Shown in pieces: positions 16,371-23,044 of a stretch of 64,000 bases of DNA. This DNA comes from Chloroflexota bacterium. Lineage in GTDB: Bacteria > Chloroflexota > Anaerolineae > Aggregatilineales > Phototrophicaceae. The position numbers and the translations under genes are program-made. Numbering within the stretch: position 1 is the stretch's first letter; each line of letters begins with the position of its first letter. The notes under the pieces were generated by a model. The model saw nothing but the letters and a program-made list of their open reading frames with translations. It was not told the origin of the DNA and did not search any database. Location: positions 28,218 to 92,217 of the forward strand of contig JAPPFH010000150.1 in the NCBI GenBank assembly GCA_028875185.1, written 5' to 3'.

Positions 16371-17915
16371 TTACGCCGGGCGCAAAAAACCCTTCACATC
16401 CAGCAGCCCCAGCAAAAATCCGCGCGGATCAGCCGGTTTGGGCAGCGGCAGTTGACGCAGAGGCCTGATGAAGTCGACCGCGAGACCGCCTTCGCTGATG
16501 ATGCGATTGATCAGCTTGCCCACCTCGTTGTATTGCATGATGATCGCGTTGAGGTAATCGTCTACCGCAGTCACTTTCCAGAGCTCAACCGCCGACAGCA
16601 GCGCCTCCAGATTATGCACCAGCATTCCAATTTTGTAACGATATTCGGGTTCGTTAGTGACGCCGCGCGCCTGAATGGCGTCCATGATGCCCTGGCTCGC
16701 TATGATTAGCGGCGCCGCGTCCAGCGGGATCGGCAGCTGGCAGCGGGCGATATAGTCGGCGTAATCGAAGAAGGGCGGGTGGCGATTCACGCGGCTGCTG
16801 TTGAGGATTTGCTTGCCTTCGCGCGGGATGTAGGCGTTTTCGCGCAGCGCAAGCATCCGCGCCTCAATATCGCCTTGCGTCTTGGCGCCGAGGTAGCGCC
16901 GCGTGTGCTTGTAGGTGAGCAGCGTGTTGAGGGTGTAATGACCATCAAAGACGGGATAGACGAAGGAGTCGATGGCATTGCCGCCGATGTTGGATTCTTT
17001 GAGAAAACCCTTGGAACCGGTGACCAGCAGATTCTGCGACAGAATCTCGTTGCATTTGAGCAGCAGCCAAGACTTGAGCATGATGCCGTGGAATTGCAGG
17101 AAGGGGCTGTCGCTGAATGCGAGAGCGCGGAAGAAGGTGAAATTGATATGCGCCGCAGCCAGCGCTAGATTGTAAAGCTGGCGGAAGACATTGCTGAAGC
17201 GGATGGGATTGTCGCCGAAGATATTCTTGCTCGACAGATGCTCGATGGCGGCCGGCAGCGAGTCGTCCACCATTTTCACGCCCATATAGGCGCAGTGGTA
17301 TTTCGAGGGCAGCGCCATCCGCTGCAAAATCTCCAGCCCGCGCCCGGCTTGGCCGATGAGGATGCCGGGTCCGTCAATGTCGAATTTTGTGAGGACCATG
17401 CTGCGCAGCACGTGCGTTTCCAGGCGCTGCCAGTTTCTCGTGCTGCTGTGCGGCACGGCGAAAAGCGAGAGCGAGCGCGGTCCGCTTGCGTCAGGATCGA
17501 CCTTGGCGATGACAGAGTGGTAATCGGCGTGGTAAGAATTATTGATCAGCCATTTCTGGCCCTTGATGTGATAGTTTTTCTCGCCCGGATCGTCGCTCGC
17601 GGGCGTGGCGCAGGTTCGCACGCTGAGCAAGTCGGTGCCGGTATGCTCCTCGGTCCAACTCAGGGTGAAGATCTTGCCTTTGAGTTCCGCCGCCAGCGCA
17701 TACTCTTCGGCGGCGACCAGCATCATATAAGCCAGACCACTGGCGGCGCAGGCAGTCATATAGCTTGGGTTGTTGCGGAAATGCTTGGTGGCTTCCAGCA
17801 TCGAGCCCATCAAATTGAAAGTGGGATAGACGTTATCGAGCACATCCATCATACCGGCGCGCAGGCGGTCGTAGTCGAGTATGTCGCCGAATTGCGGGTG
17901 TTTGATGGTGTTCAT
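16371..17915 (-). CDS. Acyl-CoA dehydrogenase-like flavoprotein (paralogue A)
   Basis: A protein of about 514 aa resembling the acyl-CoA dehydrogenase / AidB group. The middle beta domain shows SWTEEHTGTDL and, after a gap, YHIKGQKWLINNSY with AKVDPDASGPRSLSLFAVP (flavin-contacting segment). A large helical C-domain carries the KGFLKESNIGGNAIDSFVYP active-site-region block. It is longer than simple acyl-CoA dehydrogenases (about 380 aa), as AidB-like enzymes are. The open frame continues to 18017, but the alignable start is ATG 17915. It is a full-length paralogue of the gene at 20526-22088, from which it is separated by a methylase/HEPN/DUF262 insertion; only 4 bases separate its start from that insertion's truncated end. 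Substrate is unknown. Confidence 0.75.
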   Translation of the reverse strand: MNTIKHPQFGDILDYDRLRAGMMDVLDNVYPTFNLMGSMLEATKHFRNNPSYMTACAASGLAYMMLVAAEEYALAAELKGKIFTLSWTEEHTGTDLLSVRTCATPASDDPGEKNYHIKGQKWLINNSYHADYHSVIAKVDPDASGPRSLSLFAVPHSSTRNWQRLETHVLRSMVLTKFDIDGPGILIGQAGRGLEILQRMALPSKYHCAYMGVKMVDDSLPAAIEHLSSKNIFGDNPIRFSNVFRQLYNLALAAAHINFTFFRALAFSDSPFLQFHGIMLKSWLLLKCNEILSQNLLVTGSKGFLKESNIGGNAIDSFVYPVFDGHYTLNTLLTYKHTRRYLGAKTQGDIEARMLALRENAYIPREGKQILNSSRVNRHPPFFDYADYIARCQLPIPLDAAPLIIASQGIMDAIQARGVTNEPEYRYKIGMLVHNLEALLSAVELWKVTAVDDYLNAIIMQYNEVGKLINRIISEGGLAVDFIRPLRQLPLPKPADPRGFLLGLLDVKGFLRPA

Positions 17916-17919
17916 GGAT

Positions 17920-18069
17920 TTAGTGTTGCTGTCCCTTATTGGTGAAATCGCGTTGAAGTGGCGGGCGAATGTCCAGCGCCCCGCCACAGCCGACCACGCC
18001 GCCAGCGCCGCCGTCATGGCCGCCGGCGACGAGGTCGCGGACGGTAAGGTCTAGCTGTTGGATATTCAT
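17920..18069 (-). pseudogene. Truncated N-terminus of a DUF262 (GmrSD/ParB-like) protein, 49 codons
   Basis: This short frame is outside typical gene-size limits but is informative. It starts at ATG 18069, only 3 bases after the stop of the HEPN-motif gene. It reads MNIQQLDLTVRDLVAG, then GGVVGCGGALDIRPPLQRDF, before a stop at 17920-17922. The block G-x-L-D-I-R-P-P-x-Q-R-D/E-F is the conserved opening of DUF262 proteins, the NTPase/nuclease component of GmrSD-like type IV restriction. Full proteins of this family run to several hundred residues, so this is a remnant cut at the junction with the acyl-CoA-dehydrogenase-like gene. Family assignment is from recognition of the motif and is fairly secure. 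Confidence 0.7.
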
Positions 18070-18072
18070 TAC

Positions 18073-19476
18073 TTATATCTTCTGGATTATTTCTTCCCTA
18101 GTCAAAGGTTCAACATAATGGCTTAATTCAAGTACTTCGGACATATCCCACCCAGGTATCCACTGTTCGTATCTGTAAAAGCTGTCAATTTTATCTCTGA
18201 CTCTCGCCCAGAAAAAAGCTGGGATGATTAGCAGCTTAAATTCTCCAGTCTCGGTGCGGGTTGCCGTGAAGACCTGCTCTCTGTCAGTGTACTCTTCTGG
18301 CGTGTGATGCACGGAGCTTATGCCAACATATCCCTTTGTAAATCCATCATGAACAAATCCGTTTCGGATTAGGTTGGCCAGTTGTTTATATGCAGTATGT
18401 TCAAAGCCGAAGGCAGGGAAAAACATCTTGAGTGTTTTGATCCAGTTTGACTTAGATTTCCCAGTTTTCAGCTTATAGACCAAGTCCATACAAGGCAACA
18501 TTGAGACAAGCGCCACAATGTGATTTTCACTGCCACTGCGTATAAGAAAGTCAATCTGCGATCTATAGCGCCTCTCCCACAAGTCTTGTGCCTTCCACTT
18601 CTCTCCACCTATAACATATCGCGTTTGTCGAAGCCTGTTTGGGACTTCTTTATCTCTTGGAGGAAATAGCGGGTTAAATTGTTCATATAAAGAAAGAAAT
18701 TGCTTGGCAGATTTGTTATCAGAAGTTGGGAAGTCTTCGTCAAAATCACTTCTCTCGACGACTCGTTTTACTAATCCATTTTTGGGTAAATCTGCCGTGT
18801 AGAGATATTGAGCCATTTCACTTTTTTCGTAGAAACATTGAAGGATCTTGCCTTCTTCAATGTACAGCCATTTGTATCGCGGTGGCTTGTAAGCCACCTT
18901 TTCTGTTTTCAGATCTCGTTGTGTCCATTCGTAAGCATTGAGGAGCCATTCTTTAATTTGTTCAGCAGTGCATTCCGATAAGAACATCGGATCAGAATTA
19001 GGGATTAGGTCCCAATGATCTGACAGAAACTCATAGGTTTCTTCATTGGCCGATATTCGCCAGTTTGATTGAGTTTCGTTATCAACGACCTTGACTTCCC
19101 ATCTGCCGTTCATATTTGGAATAGACGCGAAATAACTGCAAATTTTCTTAAACAGAATCTCACCCCAATTGTATGGGCAGTTAAGTGAAAATAATGCATC
19201 CGTTGGTTTCCACACAGCGGGGGCTTCTTTGTTTAGCCAAACAACATCCCCATTAGGTAAGCGTCTTCTATTACTGGCCATAGATGCTCTAGCTGACCCA
19301 ATGCGTTCGACTACAACATCTTTTCTCTCGTGTTCTCGTATTAGCTTCTGTAATTCATCGGATATTCTCCTGTATGGGTAAGCCCCCACTGTTCCGTTTA
19401 GCTCTTTGTGACACCATAAAATCATCACTTTCTTTTTGTTATTATGTTCATTTGTTGAGGCAATCAGGTTATCCAT
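18073..19476 (-). CDS. HEPN-motif protein in a methylase-linked defence operon, 467 aa
   Basis: Full-length family is not recognised. The C-terminal region is helical and contains LANLIRNGFVHDGF, giving RNGFVH at about residues 371-376, the R-N-x3-H signature of HEPN RNases. It is preceded by a helix with SMLPCMDLVYKL, as is usual for the fold. The N-terminal part (about 1-120, starting KVMILWCHKELNG) is alpha/beta and unassigned. It starts one base after the stop of an EcoRI-family adenine methylase and is followed after 3 bases by a truncated DUF262 gene, so it sits centrally in a three-gene cassette. Composition is AT-rich. An effector nuclease controlled by, or paired with, the methylase is the likeliest role (inference). 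Confidence 0.6.
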   Translation of the reverse strand: MDNLIASTNEHNNKKKVMILWCHKELNGTVGAYPYRRISDELQKLIREHERKDVVVERIGSARASMASNRRRLPNGDVVWLNKEAPAVWKPTDALFSLNCPYNWGEILFKKICSYFASIPNMNGRWEVKVVDNETQSNWRISANEETYEFLSDHWDLIPNSDPMFLSECTAEQIKEWLLNAYEWTQRDLKTEKVAYKPPRYKWLYIEEGKILQCFYEKSEMAQYLYTADLPKNGLVKRVVERSDFDEDFPTSDNKSAKQFLSLYEQFNPLFPPRDKEVPNRLRQTRYVIGGEKWKAQDLWERRYRSQIDFLIRSGSENHIVALVSMLPCMDLVYKLKTGKSKSNWIKTLKMFFPAFGFEHTAYKQLANLIRNGFVHDGFTKGYVGISSVHHTPEEYTDREQVFTATRTETGEFKLLIIPAFFWARVRDKIDSFYRYEQWIPGWDMSEVLELSHYVEPLTREEIIQKI

Positions 19477-19477
19477 G

Positions 19478-20461
19478 TCAACTCATCCGCTGCTGAATAA
19501 TGATGCGAAAGTAGGGCTCTTTTCCGTTGACGCGCAAATCTTTTCCATCATCTCCTTTTCTGAACCGTATTATCTCAAACTGCTCCGGATTGTGTTTGTT
19601 CAAAAACGTAATCGGCACGCCCATCGCGCCTTCCCAATCCATCGGAATCTCGGCCGTCTTAGACACCTCAATCGCATCGTAGTTGTCGTACTTCGGGTAT
19701 TCCTCTGGCGAGTAGCGTTTGAATAAAATCAGTTCTTCGTGCCTCTGCCGGTAATCCAGATTGGTATACCAGCAGGCGCTTCCAAGCCGGCCATAAACGA
19801 CGCCGTCGACAATCCTGTAGGCGCTTCCCTCATTCTTTGTCGCCACCAATTCTTTTGCGTAGTCTTCGGGAACGTCAAACAGCATGTCCTTTCCGCGCGG
19901 CGTGATGCCAAGCCACAGTTTGTTGTCCTTAATCAGCGGGAAAATCTCTTTGTAAGTAATCGCATTCTGATGTCCAATAATGAGAAACTGCTTGTCATAT
20001 TCAATCAACTGCGCCACATATTCGCGGAAGAGCGAAAAAGGCGGGTTCGTCACCACGATGTCCGCTTGCTTGAGCAGCTCGATGCATTCCGCGCTGCGAA
20101 AATCGCCATCGCCTTCCAGGTGGCGAACACCAATATCCTCTATCGACGGGATACCTGTTTCGTTCTCCGTCCCGTCATATTCCAGCCAGATCGCCTTTTC
20201 GGCGTCGTGCTGGCTGAACATATCCATTTGCTGATTCTTGTAGCAGGTGGTGATCAGTTTCTTGAGTCCGAGGACGCGGAAATTGTAGGCGAAGTAGTGA
20301 AAGAAATTGCTCACGCGCGGATCATCGCAATTGCAGTAGACGACCTTTCCGCGAAAGCGGTCGGTGTAATGCCGCAGTTCGTTTTCTATGTCGACAAGCT
20401 GCGTATAGAACTCGTCTTTCTTGTTCGTCTTCGCTTGGTGCAGGTTGCGGTTCGCTGACAT
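19478..20461 (-). CDS. Adenine-specific DNA methyltransferase, EcoRI methylase family
   Basis: A 327-aa enzyme resembling the EcoRI methylase family (N6-adenine). Landmarks are the opening KTNKKDEFYTQLVDIENELRHY in two blocks, VYCNCDDPRVSNFFHYFA, and the catalytic motif IV VVTNPPFSLFREY (NPPF). The DYRQRHEELILFKRY and PEQFEIIRF blocks near the end are characteristic. The frame is open to 20611, but ATG 20461 has AGAGGACGCC before it and matches the family start. It heads a tight operon with the HEPN-motif gene and the DUF262 remnant. No EcoRI-like endonuclease is nearby, so the partner effector is probably one of those two. Confidence 0.88.
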   Translation of the reverse strand: MSANRNLHQAKTNKKDEFYTQLVDIENELRHYTDRFRGKVVYCNCDDPRVSNFFHYFAYNFRVLGLKKLITTCYKNQQMDMFSQHDAEKAIWLEYDGTENETGIPSIEDIGVRHLEGDGDFRSAECIELLKQADIVVTNPPFSLFREYVAQLIEYDKQFLIIGHQNAITYKEIFPLIKDNKLWLGITPRGKDMLFDVPEDYAKELVATKNEGSAYRIVDGVVYGRLGSACWYTNLDYRQRHEELILFKRYSPEEYPKYDNYDAIEVSKTAEIPMDWEGAMGVPITFLNKHNPEQFEIIRFRKGDDGKDLRVNGKEPYFRIIIQQRMS

Positions 20462-20483: not shown

Positions 20484-20530
20484 GGGCGAGACAAGGGTAG
20501 CGTGGACACTAACCGTCTCTCGCCCCTACA
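20484..20530. repeat. Palindromic repeat interrupted by a loop-core unit
   Basis: The GGGCGAGACAA...TCTCGCCCCTACA palindrome occurs uninterrupted at 61229. Here it is split by GGTA-GCGTGGACACT-AACC (20496-20514). The distal CTACA supplies the stop codon of the acyl-CoA-dehydrogenase-like gene at 20526. The region is also the 5' flank of the methylase operon, so any promoter of that operon must lie in or beyond the repeat. Confidence 0.75.
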
Positions 20531-22088
20531 GATTCGTAATCGCCTCGCGCGGAGAGGAAAACTGCTGGGCCATGTCGTATAGACGCAGCAGGAATTCGCG
20601 CGGGGCTTCAAAACAGCGCAGCGGGCGCTGCCGCATCAGCGGGAGGAATTCCGTCTCCAGAGCGCTCTCGCTGATAATTTGATTGAACTGATTGGCGAAG
20701 GCGTTGTACTGCATTACGACCGCATTGAGATATTCGTCTTCGCCGGTCGCTTTCCACATTTCGCAGGCGGCCAACAAAGCCTCCATCCAATGCAGCATGG
20801 TGCCAAGTTTGTAGCGATGTTCCGGGTCGGTCGTCAGATCGCGCGCGTTCAGTTCGTCGGCTAGCGCCTGCATCCGCGTAACGATGCGGCGCGCGTCGAG
20901 GTCAATCGGCAGTTCCAGGTCCTCGATGTATCCCGCGTAATCGAAGAAATCGGGATTGCGCAGCGAGCGCGAATTTGCGCGGATTGGATCCCCGCTGGTT
21001 GAGCCGGCGAGCCCGAAGCGCAAGGTCGCCATGCGTTCGTCCACATCGGCGCGGCGCGGCGCCCCCAGGTAACGTTTGACATGCTTGGCGGTCATCAAGG
21101 TGTTGATGGTGTAATGGCCATCGAAGACGGGCAGGACGAAGGAATCGATGGCGTTGCGCCCGATGACCGATTCCGCCAGGAAGCCTTTAGAGCCGACGAC
21201 CAGCAGGTTCTGGCCTAGCAGCTCGTTGGCGCGCAGCAGCAGCCAGGACTTGAGCATGACGCCGTGGAATTGCAAGAAGTTGCTCGCGCTAAAAGCCAGG
21301 GCGCGATAATAGATGAAGTTGAGCACAGCCGCGCCCATAACGATATTGTACATCTGCCGCAGCACATTGCTGAAATTGATAGGGTTTTCGTTGAAGATGC
21401 GTTTCTTCGAGAGATGCTCGATGCTGGACGGGATAGCTTCGTTGAGCAGATTGATGCCGACATAGGCGCATTGGTATTTGCTGGGCATGGCCATGCGCTG
21501 CAAGATTTGCAAGCCGTGCCCGACCTTGCCGAGCAGGCGCCCGGGTCCGTCAATGTCAAAGCTGGTGAGCACCATGCGCCGCAGGACATGCGTCTCCAGC
21601 CGCTGCCAATTCTTGCAGCTGCTTTGCGGCACGAGGAAGATTGAAAGCGAGCGCGGTCCGCCCGAATCGGGATCGGTCTTGGCGACGATGGTGTGATAAT
21701 CGGCGTGGTAAGAATTATTGATCAGCCACTTACGGCCCTTGAGATGATAGTCGACGCAATCGGGACCATCGTTTAAGGGCGTCGCCAGAGTCGCGGCGCT
21801 CAACAGGTCGGAGCCGATATCTTCTTCGGTCCAGCCGAGGGTGAAGAGGCTGTCTTTGAGCTCTTCGGCGATGTCGTCTTCACCGGCGGCGATGATGGTC
21901 ATCCAGGCGAGCATGCTGGCGCCAGCCGCGATCATGACATCGGGTTCATCGCCGTATAGCTCGGTACCGACTTGCAGCGACTTGTGCATATTGAAATCGG
22001 GCAGCAGCGCATTGTAAAGATGCAGAATGGAATGGCGCAGCCGATTGAAGTCGACAATATCGCCGAATTGCGGGTCATTTATGTACAT
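20526..22088 (-). CDS. Acyl-CoA dehydrogenase-like flavoprotein (paralogue B)
   Basis: This 520-aa paralogue of the gene at 16371 has the same order of blocks: DPQFGDIVDFNRLR at the start, GWTEEDIGSDLLSA in the beta domain, YHLKGRKWLINNSYHADYH, SIFLVPQSSCKNWQRLETHV, and GSKGFLAESVIGRNAIDSF in the helical domain. Similarity covers the whole length, so the two arose by duplication and were probably once adjacent. The ATG at 22088 is followed immediately by the family opening. The TAG stop lies in a palindromic repeat (CTGTAGGGGC). Whether it works on acyl-CoA or, like AidB, has a non-standard substrate cannot be read here. Confidence 0.75.
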   Translation of the reverse strand: MYINDPQFGDIVDFNRLRHSILHLYNALLPDFNMHKSLQVGTELYGDEPDVMIAAGASMLAWMTIIAAGEDDIAEELKDSLFTLGWTEEDIGSDLLSAATLATPLNDGPDCVDYHLKGRKWLINNSYHADYHTIVAKTDPDSGGPRSLSIFLVPQSSCKNWQRLETHVLRRMVLTSFDIDGPGRLLGKVGHGLQILQRMAMPSKYQCAYVGINLLNEAIPSSIEHLSKKRIFNENPINFSNVLRQMYNIVMGAAVLNFIYYRALAFSASNFLQFHGVMLKSWLLLRANELLGQNLLVVGSKGFLAESVIGRNAIDSFVLPVFDGHYTINTLMTAKHVKRYLGAPRRADVDERMATLRFGLAGSTSGDPIRANSRSLRNPDFFDYAGYIEDLELPIDLDARRIVTRMQALADELNARDLTTDPEHRYKLGTMLHWMEALLAACEMWKATGEDEYLNAVVMQYNAFANQFNQIISESALETEFLPLMRQRPLRCFEAPREFLLRLYDMAQQFSSPREAITNL

Positions 22089-22330: not shown

Positions 22331-23044
22331 CTATTGCTTGATTGCCTCATTCAGTTTTTCACGCCACTGCGCAAAATCATACCATCCGCAACCAACGCAA
22401 CCTGAAGCGTCTTTCTTGTCTGTGGGACTCCACTTAGGCCCACCCTCGTAGAAGAAATCTATTCCGAACGGCTTTCCGCGTCGCCCAGTTCTGAAACAAT
22501 CTTCGCAAGTTCTACTTTTCAGGAGATTGTGGCTTACGCTTCCATTTGACTTCTTGAGAAGTTGGAAATGTTTCTTTATGAACTCTTCATCCATATTGGA
22601 ATAGTCTATGAGTTTTCTGTTTGATTCGGTATCCCATCGTAATCTCGGCAGTTTGTGATCAATTGTAAGCTGATTATGAGGACGCTCCGTATTCTCAACA
22701 ATGTCGCGGCTACCGAATATCCTCATGACTAGATTAACGAAGGACTTAGGCATGGATCCACTTTGAACGGCAGACTTGAAAGCTCCTTGCCATCGGTCAT
22801 GCCGAGTTGTTTTTTCGCAGATTACACATAAGTGATTGTCGCTCTCTATAATCATTCCAGGTCGCGATCTTGTTCCTCGTTCTAGTCCCTGAATTCCGGA
22901 ACCGCCAGCGATTTGGGTGATTCCGGTATGTTGGTATTCGCACCCTCTACAATGCCATTGTTGATCCTTTAGCACTAGAAACGCTTTATAGTTTTTCTTC
23001 GTCTTGTCAAAGGTGTTTTCAAATTCTTCCAGTGTCATTGACAT
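22331..23044 (-). CDS. Putative type II restriction endonuclease, HNH-like, zinc-containing
   Basis: A 237-aa protein directly following a DNA methyltransferase (6-base gap). It carries several CxxC pairs: CRGCEY near residue 33, CVICEK about 72, CEDCF about 184 and CVGCGW about 215. A LTIDHKLPRLRWD motif near residues 126-138 is the D-H core of HNH (beta-beta-alpha-metal) nucleases, and asparagine- and histidine-containing text (GSVSHNLLKSRTC) follows at the expected distance. Size and position make it the cognate nuclease of the methyltransferase. Recognition sequence is unknown. Composition is AT-rich relative to metabolic neighbours, suggesting horizontal acquisition. Confidence 0.7.
   Translation of the reverse strand: MSMTLEEFENTFDKTKKNYKAFLVLKDQQWHCRGCEYQHTGITQIAGGSGIQGLERGTRSRPGMIIESDNHLCVICEKTTRHDRWQGAFKSAVQSGSMPKSFVNLVMRIFGSRDIVENTERPHNQLTIDHKLPRLRWDTESNRKLIDYSNMDEEFIKKHFQLLKKSNGSVSHNLLKSRTCEDCFRTGRRGKPFGIDFFYEGGPKWSPTDKKDASGCVGCGWYDFAQWREKLNEAIKQ

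Follow-up and report, generated by a model that had tools for sequence, protein, structure and literature searches.

We describe a restriction-modification (RM) locus in a 64,000-nucleotide stretch of Chloroflexota DNA (contig JAPPFH010000150.1, positions 28,218 to 92,217 of the forward strand; hereafter the window, in whose own numbering all coordinates are given), where an EcoRI-family adenine methylase gene, a gene for a 467-residue protein with a predicted HEPN-like domain and the severed 5′ end of a DUF262-HNH restriction gene lie head to tail on the minus strand between two paralogous border genes. The gaps within this trio are 1 and 3 bases, and the original prediction, made from the letters alone, was accurate in its coordinates, strand, gaps and count of 49 DUF262 codons. 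In the direction of reading, the features of the locus are as follows.

20526..22088, minus strand: acyl-CoA-dehydrogenase-like gene, left border of chromosomal site I (Pfam PF02770, E 2.3e-11; searched for in 34 genomes)
20484..20525, no strand: palindrome immediately before the methylase gene, arms 20484-20491 and 20518-20525 (from reading of the sequence and alignment with eight empty sites)
19478..20461, minus strand: EcoRI-family adenine methylase, 327 residues, intact, the constant left part of the locus (PF13651, E 3.1e-137; PADLOC PDLC03297, E 1.3e-130)
18073..19476, minus strand: intact open reading frame (ORF) of the 467-residue protein, the cargo gene of the window copy (relatives in L136, L138 and, partial, L122)
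18142..18624, minus strand: predicted HEPN-like C-terminal domain of that protein, residues 285-445, with the motif RNGFVH (AlphaFold2 model and 30-row alignment)
17920..18069, minus strand: 5′ stub of the DUF262-HNH restriction gene, 49 codons and a stop, right-hand end of the unit (PADLOC PDLC03418 and nhmmer)
16371..17915, minus strand: paralogous acyl-CoA-dehydrogenase-like gene, right border of site I (Pfam PF02770, E 3.2e-11)

The family matches place the methylase in the EcoRI type, as had been predicted, and the DUF262 identity of the 49-codon piece is borne out as well: it matches positions 1-46 of the 372 in the PADLOC 'Type II restriction enzyme' model PDLC03418 (E 9.8e-4; Pfam and NCBIfam give no match) and aligns at the DNA level with positions 1-145 of a 1107-position nhmmer model of the gene, built from intact relatives. 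The window copy has no intact cognate restriction gene beside its methylase, only this stub. DUF262 by itself is common, being present in 10 of 14 control genomes. In the one intact relative scanned, from the window's own genome (G000:C153), the protein has a partial GmrSD_N match, a PF01844 HNH match at its end and no DUF1524 match in Pfam, and its match to the PADLOC Type II restriction enzyme model (E 2.5e-130) spans the whole protein. The HNH end, the lack of DUF1524, the full-length Type II match and the position of the intact partner downstream of the methylase wherever both are seen make an ordinary methylase/restriction-enzyme pair likelier, by family resemblance, than the modification-dependent, GmrSD-like pair originally suggested, to which we give little weight.

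The trio is not a chance neighbourhood, since the same order recurs in relatives and the gene of the 467-residue protein gives pairwise ratios of nonsynonymous to synonymous substitution (dN/dS) of 0.23-0.27 with two of them. The window's own genome (G000) contains five places with a PF13651 methylase, a family of which only 15 of the 400 genomes sampled from the phylum have any member, and downstream of these five lie the 467-residue protein, a 194-residue protein, a 463-residue ApeA-like protein, a TIR protein and an intact DUF262-HNH gene (gap 355 bp). Eleven DUF262-start matches were obtained among the 40 of 106 candidates scored in this genome, all of them at its five methylase loci. At G000:C153, 4.0 kb separate the methylase from the intact DUF262-HNH gene and hold six partial DUF262 starts, all in one direction, which divide it into seven intervals; most of these contain a small ORF, and the last a VapBC-like pair (by eye).

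A 141-bp query from the DUF262 start was run against the order (154 genomes); five candidates were scored in each, which makes the resulting counts lower bounds. It matches at least 57 of the 154, including at least 28 of the 34 that belong to the same genus as the window (G518 marginally, E 8.3e-4). Beyond that genus, strong matches (E 1e-19 or better) occur in G483, G485 and G530, the remainder being short, with E 6.7e-6 or worse. All places at E<=1.1e-5 were fetched (47 loci), minus G458:C229, a 41-bp match, and these together with the window, L024-L027, L046, L138 and L141 form the 55 loci examined here, L003 having been dropped as a duplicate of L136. In other Chloroflexota, all 13 loci with both genes run from the methylase directly into the DUF262-HNH gene with a gap of -82 to 169 bp (-4 in eight of them; a fourteenth place, L060, is a fragment), and we take this direct junction as the putative ancestral state. 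This two-gene PDLC03297 and PDLC03418 system has the same genes in the same order as the present locus and holds no cargo between them in any of the 13 loci, unlike the window's genus, where across the loci examined the junction acts as a slot for varied cargo. Indeed, 24 of the 30 loci with both genes in the examined set have a gap of more than 300 bp, and six have about none.

One slot can hold several cargos, each closed by a 5′ stub of the restriction gene, in arrays that reach seven units and in which each unit closes with the first ~50-190 bp of that gene. The window's 'severed' DUF262 gene is one case of a recurring stub, as the six starts of the G000:C153 array make plain, and the decapitation once ascribed to this genome in particular is seen in 37 of the 55 loci, with 66 stubs that are not to be counted as independent events. 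The stubs end at 38 distinct positions between 48 and 189 of the gene; among the 55 loci no DUF262 copy that starts at the 5′ end stops between positions 200 and 1000, none of the stubs in the examined loci lies on the reverse strand, and L130 carries short internal pieces. The gene is full length at the DNA level in 32 of the 55 loci, exceeding 300 residues in one frame in 31 of them (the full-length DNA of L118 is broken in frame), and in 30 loci a full-length copy stands beside a methylase trace. Loss of the nuclease is recurrent: 16 loci have a methylase trace and no full DUF262 gene, and 13 keep a DUF262 3′ remnant. Wherever there is a methylase trace, whole or partial (46 of 46 loci), the DUF262 pieces lie downstream of it on the same strand. 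Against a consensus of the intact genes, mismatch at second codon positions is 0.141 in stubs and 0.071 in intact genes, and at third codon positions it is similar in the two (0.237 and 0.267, respectively); 50 of 58 stubs keep the start codon and 55 of 58 are free of in-frame stops, the 58 scored being those among the 66 whose start falls within the first six positions. By these figures the stubs look like relaxed, young copies.

Two kinds of joint recur. An internal deletion joins DUF262 positions ~62-89 to 1012-1023 in nine loci (L101, L119, L120, L121, L127, L129, L131, L133 and L136), and similar short G/C runs flank the deletion ends in the three intact genes compared on both sides, e.g. 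GGCGGC in L024. The second is a near-identical joint of DUF262 5′ to methylase 3′ sequence (GGCAAGCTCG or GGCAGGCTCG/AGCAGGCTCG), which is present in L091, L093 (three, in tandem), L106, L116 and L121 and in which, at GGCAAGCTCG or a near variant, the DUF262 start is fused near position 97 to the methylase 3′ end. Such joints are as expected if operon copies recombine.

Clustering of the flanks places the loci at about six fixed chromosomal sites (I-VI). Site I is bounded by the two acyl-CoA-dehydrogenase-like genes, which share a contig in 30 of the 34 genomes of the genus searched. In 15 of these 30 the site is empty, with <500 bp between the genes; two more have a small interval (922 and 949 bp) and 13 a filled one (>1.5 kb). 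Twelve of the 13 filled places were read, the remaining one being G505:C40. Both flanks cluster for the window, L092, L104, L109, L115, L124, L127, L129 and L136, the border-gene search adds L097, L105 and L134, and L095 and L121 are supported on one side. The cargo at one chromosomal site differs between genomes. L026 and L125, grouped as site VI by the downstream side only because the L125 contig begins inside the methylase, agree in their downstream flank and in the very point where stub meets chromosome (~40 bp past the stub), and hold TIR and ApeA-like cargo, respectively. The same unit also occurs at different sites: a contiguous methylase-TIR-stub unit of 2.0 kb is common to L026 and L124 (83% identity), a methylase-ApeA-stub stretch to L025 and L125 (78%), and the gene of the 467-residue protein, with the small unit that follows it, to L136 and L138. 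A methylase tree of 38 rows is not grouped by site, with 10 changes for the 10 site-I rows and, over all site groups, 22 changes compared with 24.5 in shuffled data (as low in 23 of 200 shuffles).

By eye, the N-terminal part of the methylase is nearly constant and its last 40-60 residues fall into several types across sites and genomes, which are perhaps specificity modules. The window palindrome, which we presume to be REP-like, has a near-identical copy in the empty site of G522 (L163), and palindromes also stand at site I in several genomes, whether the site is empty or filled (L156-L163). REP-like palindromes precede the methylase in 7 of 33 loci, compared with 1.8% (338 of 18774) of random 180-bp stretches, an enrichment that is only a lead since this background includes coding DNA.

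The ends of the locus are constant and its middle varies. Cargo classes were obtained by single-linkage clustering of 124 ORFs, among which those below ~100 residues or on the minus strand may not be genes; beyond the window's own proteins, Pfam was run on 20 and PADLOC on 10 proteins of this set, and the VapBC, coiled-coil/membrane, TrmB, M16 peptidase and rRNA methyltransferase assignments were made by eye. The commonest class, in 14 loci, is made up of small HEPN-like relatives of the C-terminal part of the window protein, so that the predicted linkage of such proteins to EcoRI-family methylase and DUF262 genes does recur. ApeA-like cargo occupies six loci (PF18862, ApeA_NTD1, for L025), a family of 246-283 residues with a weak AbiTii match five, small HNH proteins four (PF01844 for L128; the fifth member of this cluster is the DUF262-HNH gene of L101) and TIR proteins three (PF13676 for L026). 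Singletons and pairs include HerA-like (L097), NucC-like DUF6602 (L106) and VapBC-like (L024 and L093, by eye) cargo, and one unit of L093 gives a weak Y1-transposase match. In the window and its relatives the cargo gene thus stands between the genes of an RM operon, and by family resemblance the cargo proteins are putative abortive-infection (Abi) effectors. Small coiled-coil proteins are frequent as secondary cargo (e.g. L138:2988-3320 and L024:9640-11265), some with one membrane helix and promoter-like sequence ahead, again by eye.

The 467-residue protein gives no match to Pfam, NCBIfam or PADLOC families and, by sequence, none in the PDB at E<=1, and searches of plasmids, phages and viral contigs were empty or weak. 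Two of 400 genomes of the phylum match it, namely the window's own and one at E 6e-4, and six short peptide patterns taken from it retrieved one relative, L003, from an 84,980-species set; within the genus, relatives occur in 18 of 34 genomes. Identity is 66% to L136, 65% to L138 and 63% to L122, the last being a partial sequence from another genus, cut by a contig end. L136 is full length and lies at the same chromosomal site as the window in a locus with no methylase trace, and L138, likewise full length, lies at a different site beside only a methylase 3′ remnant, in a genome (G516) from which PF13651 matches and full DUF262-HNH genes are both entirely absent. DUF262 pieces follow the gene in all four loci (window, L136, L138 and L122). 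Its pairwise dN/dS is 0.12-0.16 in the C-terminal and 0.24-0.35 in the N-terminal part, and part of the history of this signal may be older than the loss of the neighbouring genes. The putative effector survives the loss of both methylase and nuclease, and therefore would not be a simple toxin held by the methylase; its survival without a methylase (L136 and L138; G516) argues, as far as gene content goes, against strict dependence on the RM complex.

The motif RNGFVH (residues 371-376) fits Rx4-6H, with a polar residue after the R, in the definition of HEPN by motif and helix topology given in PMC3710099. An AlphaFold2 model of residues 285-445 (predicted local distance difference test score, pLDDT, 81; predicted template-modelling score, pTM, 0.80) has helices at 6-29, 32-54, 61-68, 76-91 and 135-152 and the motif at 87-92 in domain numbering. 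Compared by eye with the published description, it has the two alpha-hairpins, the motif ending helix 3 and the insert between helices 2 and 3, with an additional beta-hairpin after the motif. The acidic Ex3[KR] feature of HEPN helix 2 appears as DLVYK in the window protein and as ELVYK in L136 and L138, the Lys being lost in many small relatives, and the motif His is invariant in the 30-row alignment. The model of the whole protein is poor (mean pLDDT 58) and a fold search with it was uninformative. The best reading is that the C-terminal domain is HEPN-like by topology and motif, which would make the protein a putative HEPN-type ribonuclease effector.

We propose a model for the locus that most reasonably fits these observations, and which we regard as probable: this segment would be a single copy of a Type II RM locus that is dispersed and recombining in its Anaerolineae genus and carries swappable Abi-type effectors between constant ends, HEPN being, on the best reading, one cargo and not the fixed third component that the original prediction had suggested. 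The ground plan of each copy would be an EcoRI-family methylase gene, followed by a cargo slot, followed by a DUF262-HNH restriction gene. Conserved methylase and DUF262 5′ sequences would serve as homology arms, allowing copies to trade cargo, and the recurrent joints would stem from short G/C-rich (GGC-rich) homologies near DUF262 codons 20-40. The restriction locus would carry the effectors, which may be triggered together with it. In the window copy, loss of the nuclease would have left an orphan methylase and a maintained, putative effector.

Several observations weigh against this model or parts of it, beginning with the dependence among the stubs noted above. L101 carries a shrunken DUF262 copy downstream of a full gene and L099 a short methylase piece in reverse, and the gaps of 334-418 bp in L027, L096, L098 and L100 and of 534 bp in L123 hold no clear cargo gene. 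Movement of whole units, as between L026 and L124, fits transposition and arm-mediated exchange equally. The stubs, mostly still open reading frames, may themselves serve some purpose, either as short coding pieces or at the level of DNA. L003, the relative retrieved from the wide species set, belongs to a publicly deposited Anaerolineae metagenome bin (G512, in the same genus as the window). With respect to the HEPN assignment, the motif Arg is absent from many small relatives in the 30-row alignment, no HEPN Pfam model was matched in the proteins scanned, and a fold search of the PDB with the domain model returned no HEPN structure and nothing at E<=0.001 (best E 0.48). The original expectation of a HEPN fold at the C-terminus therefore holds for the predicted bundle topology and the placement of RNGFVH, and finds no counterpart in profile or fold-search matches.

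A wider reading of the same model, which we consider less likely than not, is that the RM operon is a cassette platform in which effectors are stored, stacked and shuffled among the approximately six sites, an integrase-free counterpart of the integron. Here the methylase 3′ and restriction-gene 5′ ends would be the attachment arms, and loss of the nuclease would convert a copy into a methylase-plus-effector locus.

Integron cassette arrays consist of tandem units in one orientation, with a repeat closing each unit and variable cargo, and the present arrays resemble them in each of these respects. A rather unlikely alternative is that this resemblance is literal, the 5′ end of the restriction gene being a dedicated recombination site for a recombinase that inserts and shuffles cassettes. 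The same short repeat closing each same-orientation unit, the near-identical DUF262/methylase joint in five loci and the limited decay of the stubs, as judged from their start codons and open frames, all speak for it. The integron integrase model TIGR02249, however, scores over cut-off in none of the 34 genomes; matches below cut-off (E<=1e-5) in 12 of the 34, none of them in G000, are probably other tyrosine recombinases, and the 14 control genomes likewise give only such sub-cut-off matches. Furthermore, the repeat here is a piece of a restriction gene whose end points scatter over many positions where a dedicated site would give one, and mismatch at second codon positions is doubled in the stubs relative to the intact genes.

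That methylase, HEPN RNase and DUF262 nuclease form a fixed three-gene system, decayed in the window's genome, is very improbable. It would account for the DUF262 5′ piece that follows the 467-residue family in all four loci and for the HEPN-like class being the commonest cargo, but unrelated cargo occupies the slot in many loci, an intact methylase stands beside only the window's gene among the three full-length members of the family, a full DUF262 gene stands beside none, and G516 keeps its member with neither partner anywhere in the genome. Plain decay, in which costly restriction genes are often lost and leftovers plus ordinary insertions make up the pattern with no exchange, would suit the internal deletion between similar short runs in nine loci, but it is hardly tenable and, because of the arrays, insufficient alone, leaving unexplained the several 5′ starts within one array, the different cargo at one common joint (L026/L125) and the whole units at different sites, and it remains a contributor to the picture only for nuclease loss.

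Effectors inside RM operons are already known (PMC4619093, PMC12707154 and PMC3710099), and the recombining RM locus proposed here compares with them as follows. The rlo genes are named for elements between hsdS and hsdR, and RloF has a DUF262 domain (PMC4619093), while PrrC, an anticodon nuclease, lies within a Type IC locus (PMC12707154). As in the present locus, rlo, PrrC and RloC are extra, often HEPN, genes placed between the RM genes, there of Type I hsd operons; unlike them, the frame here is an EcoRI-family methylase with a DUF262-HNH nuclease, and the cargo stands in arrays parted by truncated nuclease starts and varies from genome to genome at about six chromosomal sites. HEPN families linked to RM operons (AbiJ, AbiU2, ApeA and MAE_28990) were described in 2013, MAE_28990 being 'in operon with a ParB nuclease and DNA methylase genes' and ApeA embedded in RM operons (PMC3710099). 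These too place a HEPN gene next to methylase and ParB-like/DUF262 genes, although the 467-residue protein itself is without a Pfam match, and stub-separated arrays are not among what the available portion of that paper describes. DpnI, DpnII and DpnIII occupy one locus as alternative cassettes (PMC12707154), so that, as in the present system, a fixed site can house one defence cassette or another. What alternates in that case is the RM genes; in the present loci these form the constant ends, and it is the part between them that varies. Our literature search, which covered titles and abstract openings, with subscription papers and preprints thinly represented, found no restriction loci with stub-separated cargo arrays, and priority is unproven.

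The locus offers a concrete, sequence-level view of a way in which defence genes may be reshuffled in bacteria with no recognised transposase or integrase at work. It makes available natural before-and-after pairs, in the form of empty and filled sites and of one joint with different cargo, and yields a set of probable, candidate effector families. The question of why toxins sit in restriction operons thereby becomes testable within one genus.

A second RM pair lies upstream of the left border gene, and homologues of both its genes are found upstream of site I in L092 and L109:

23051..24103, minus strand: N6/N4 methylase of the second RM pair (PF01555)
22331..23044, minus strand: Type II restriction enzyme of the second RM pair (PADLOC PDLC03537, E 8.1e-69)

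Finally, small HEPN-like proteins also occur as stand-alone genes, by eye, beside other DNA-methylase-like genes (L139, L140 and L144) and, in eight loci (L147-L150 and L152-L155), beside an rRNA-methyltransferase-like gene; these stand-alone loci are apparently inherited vertically.

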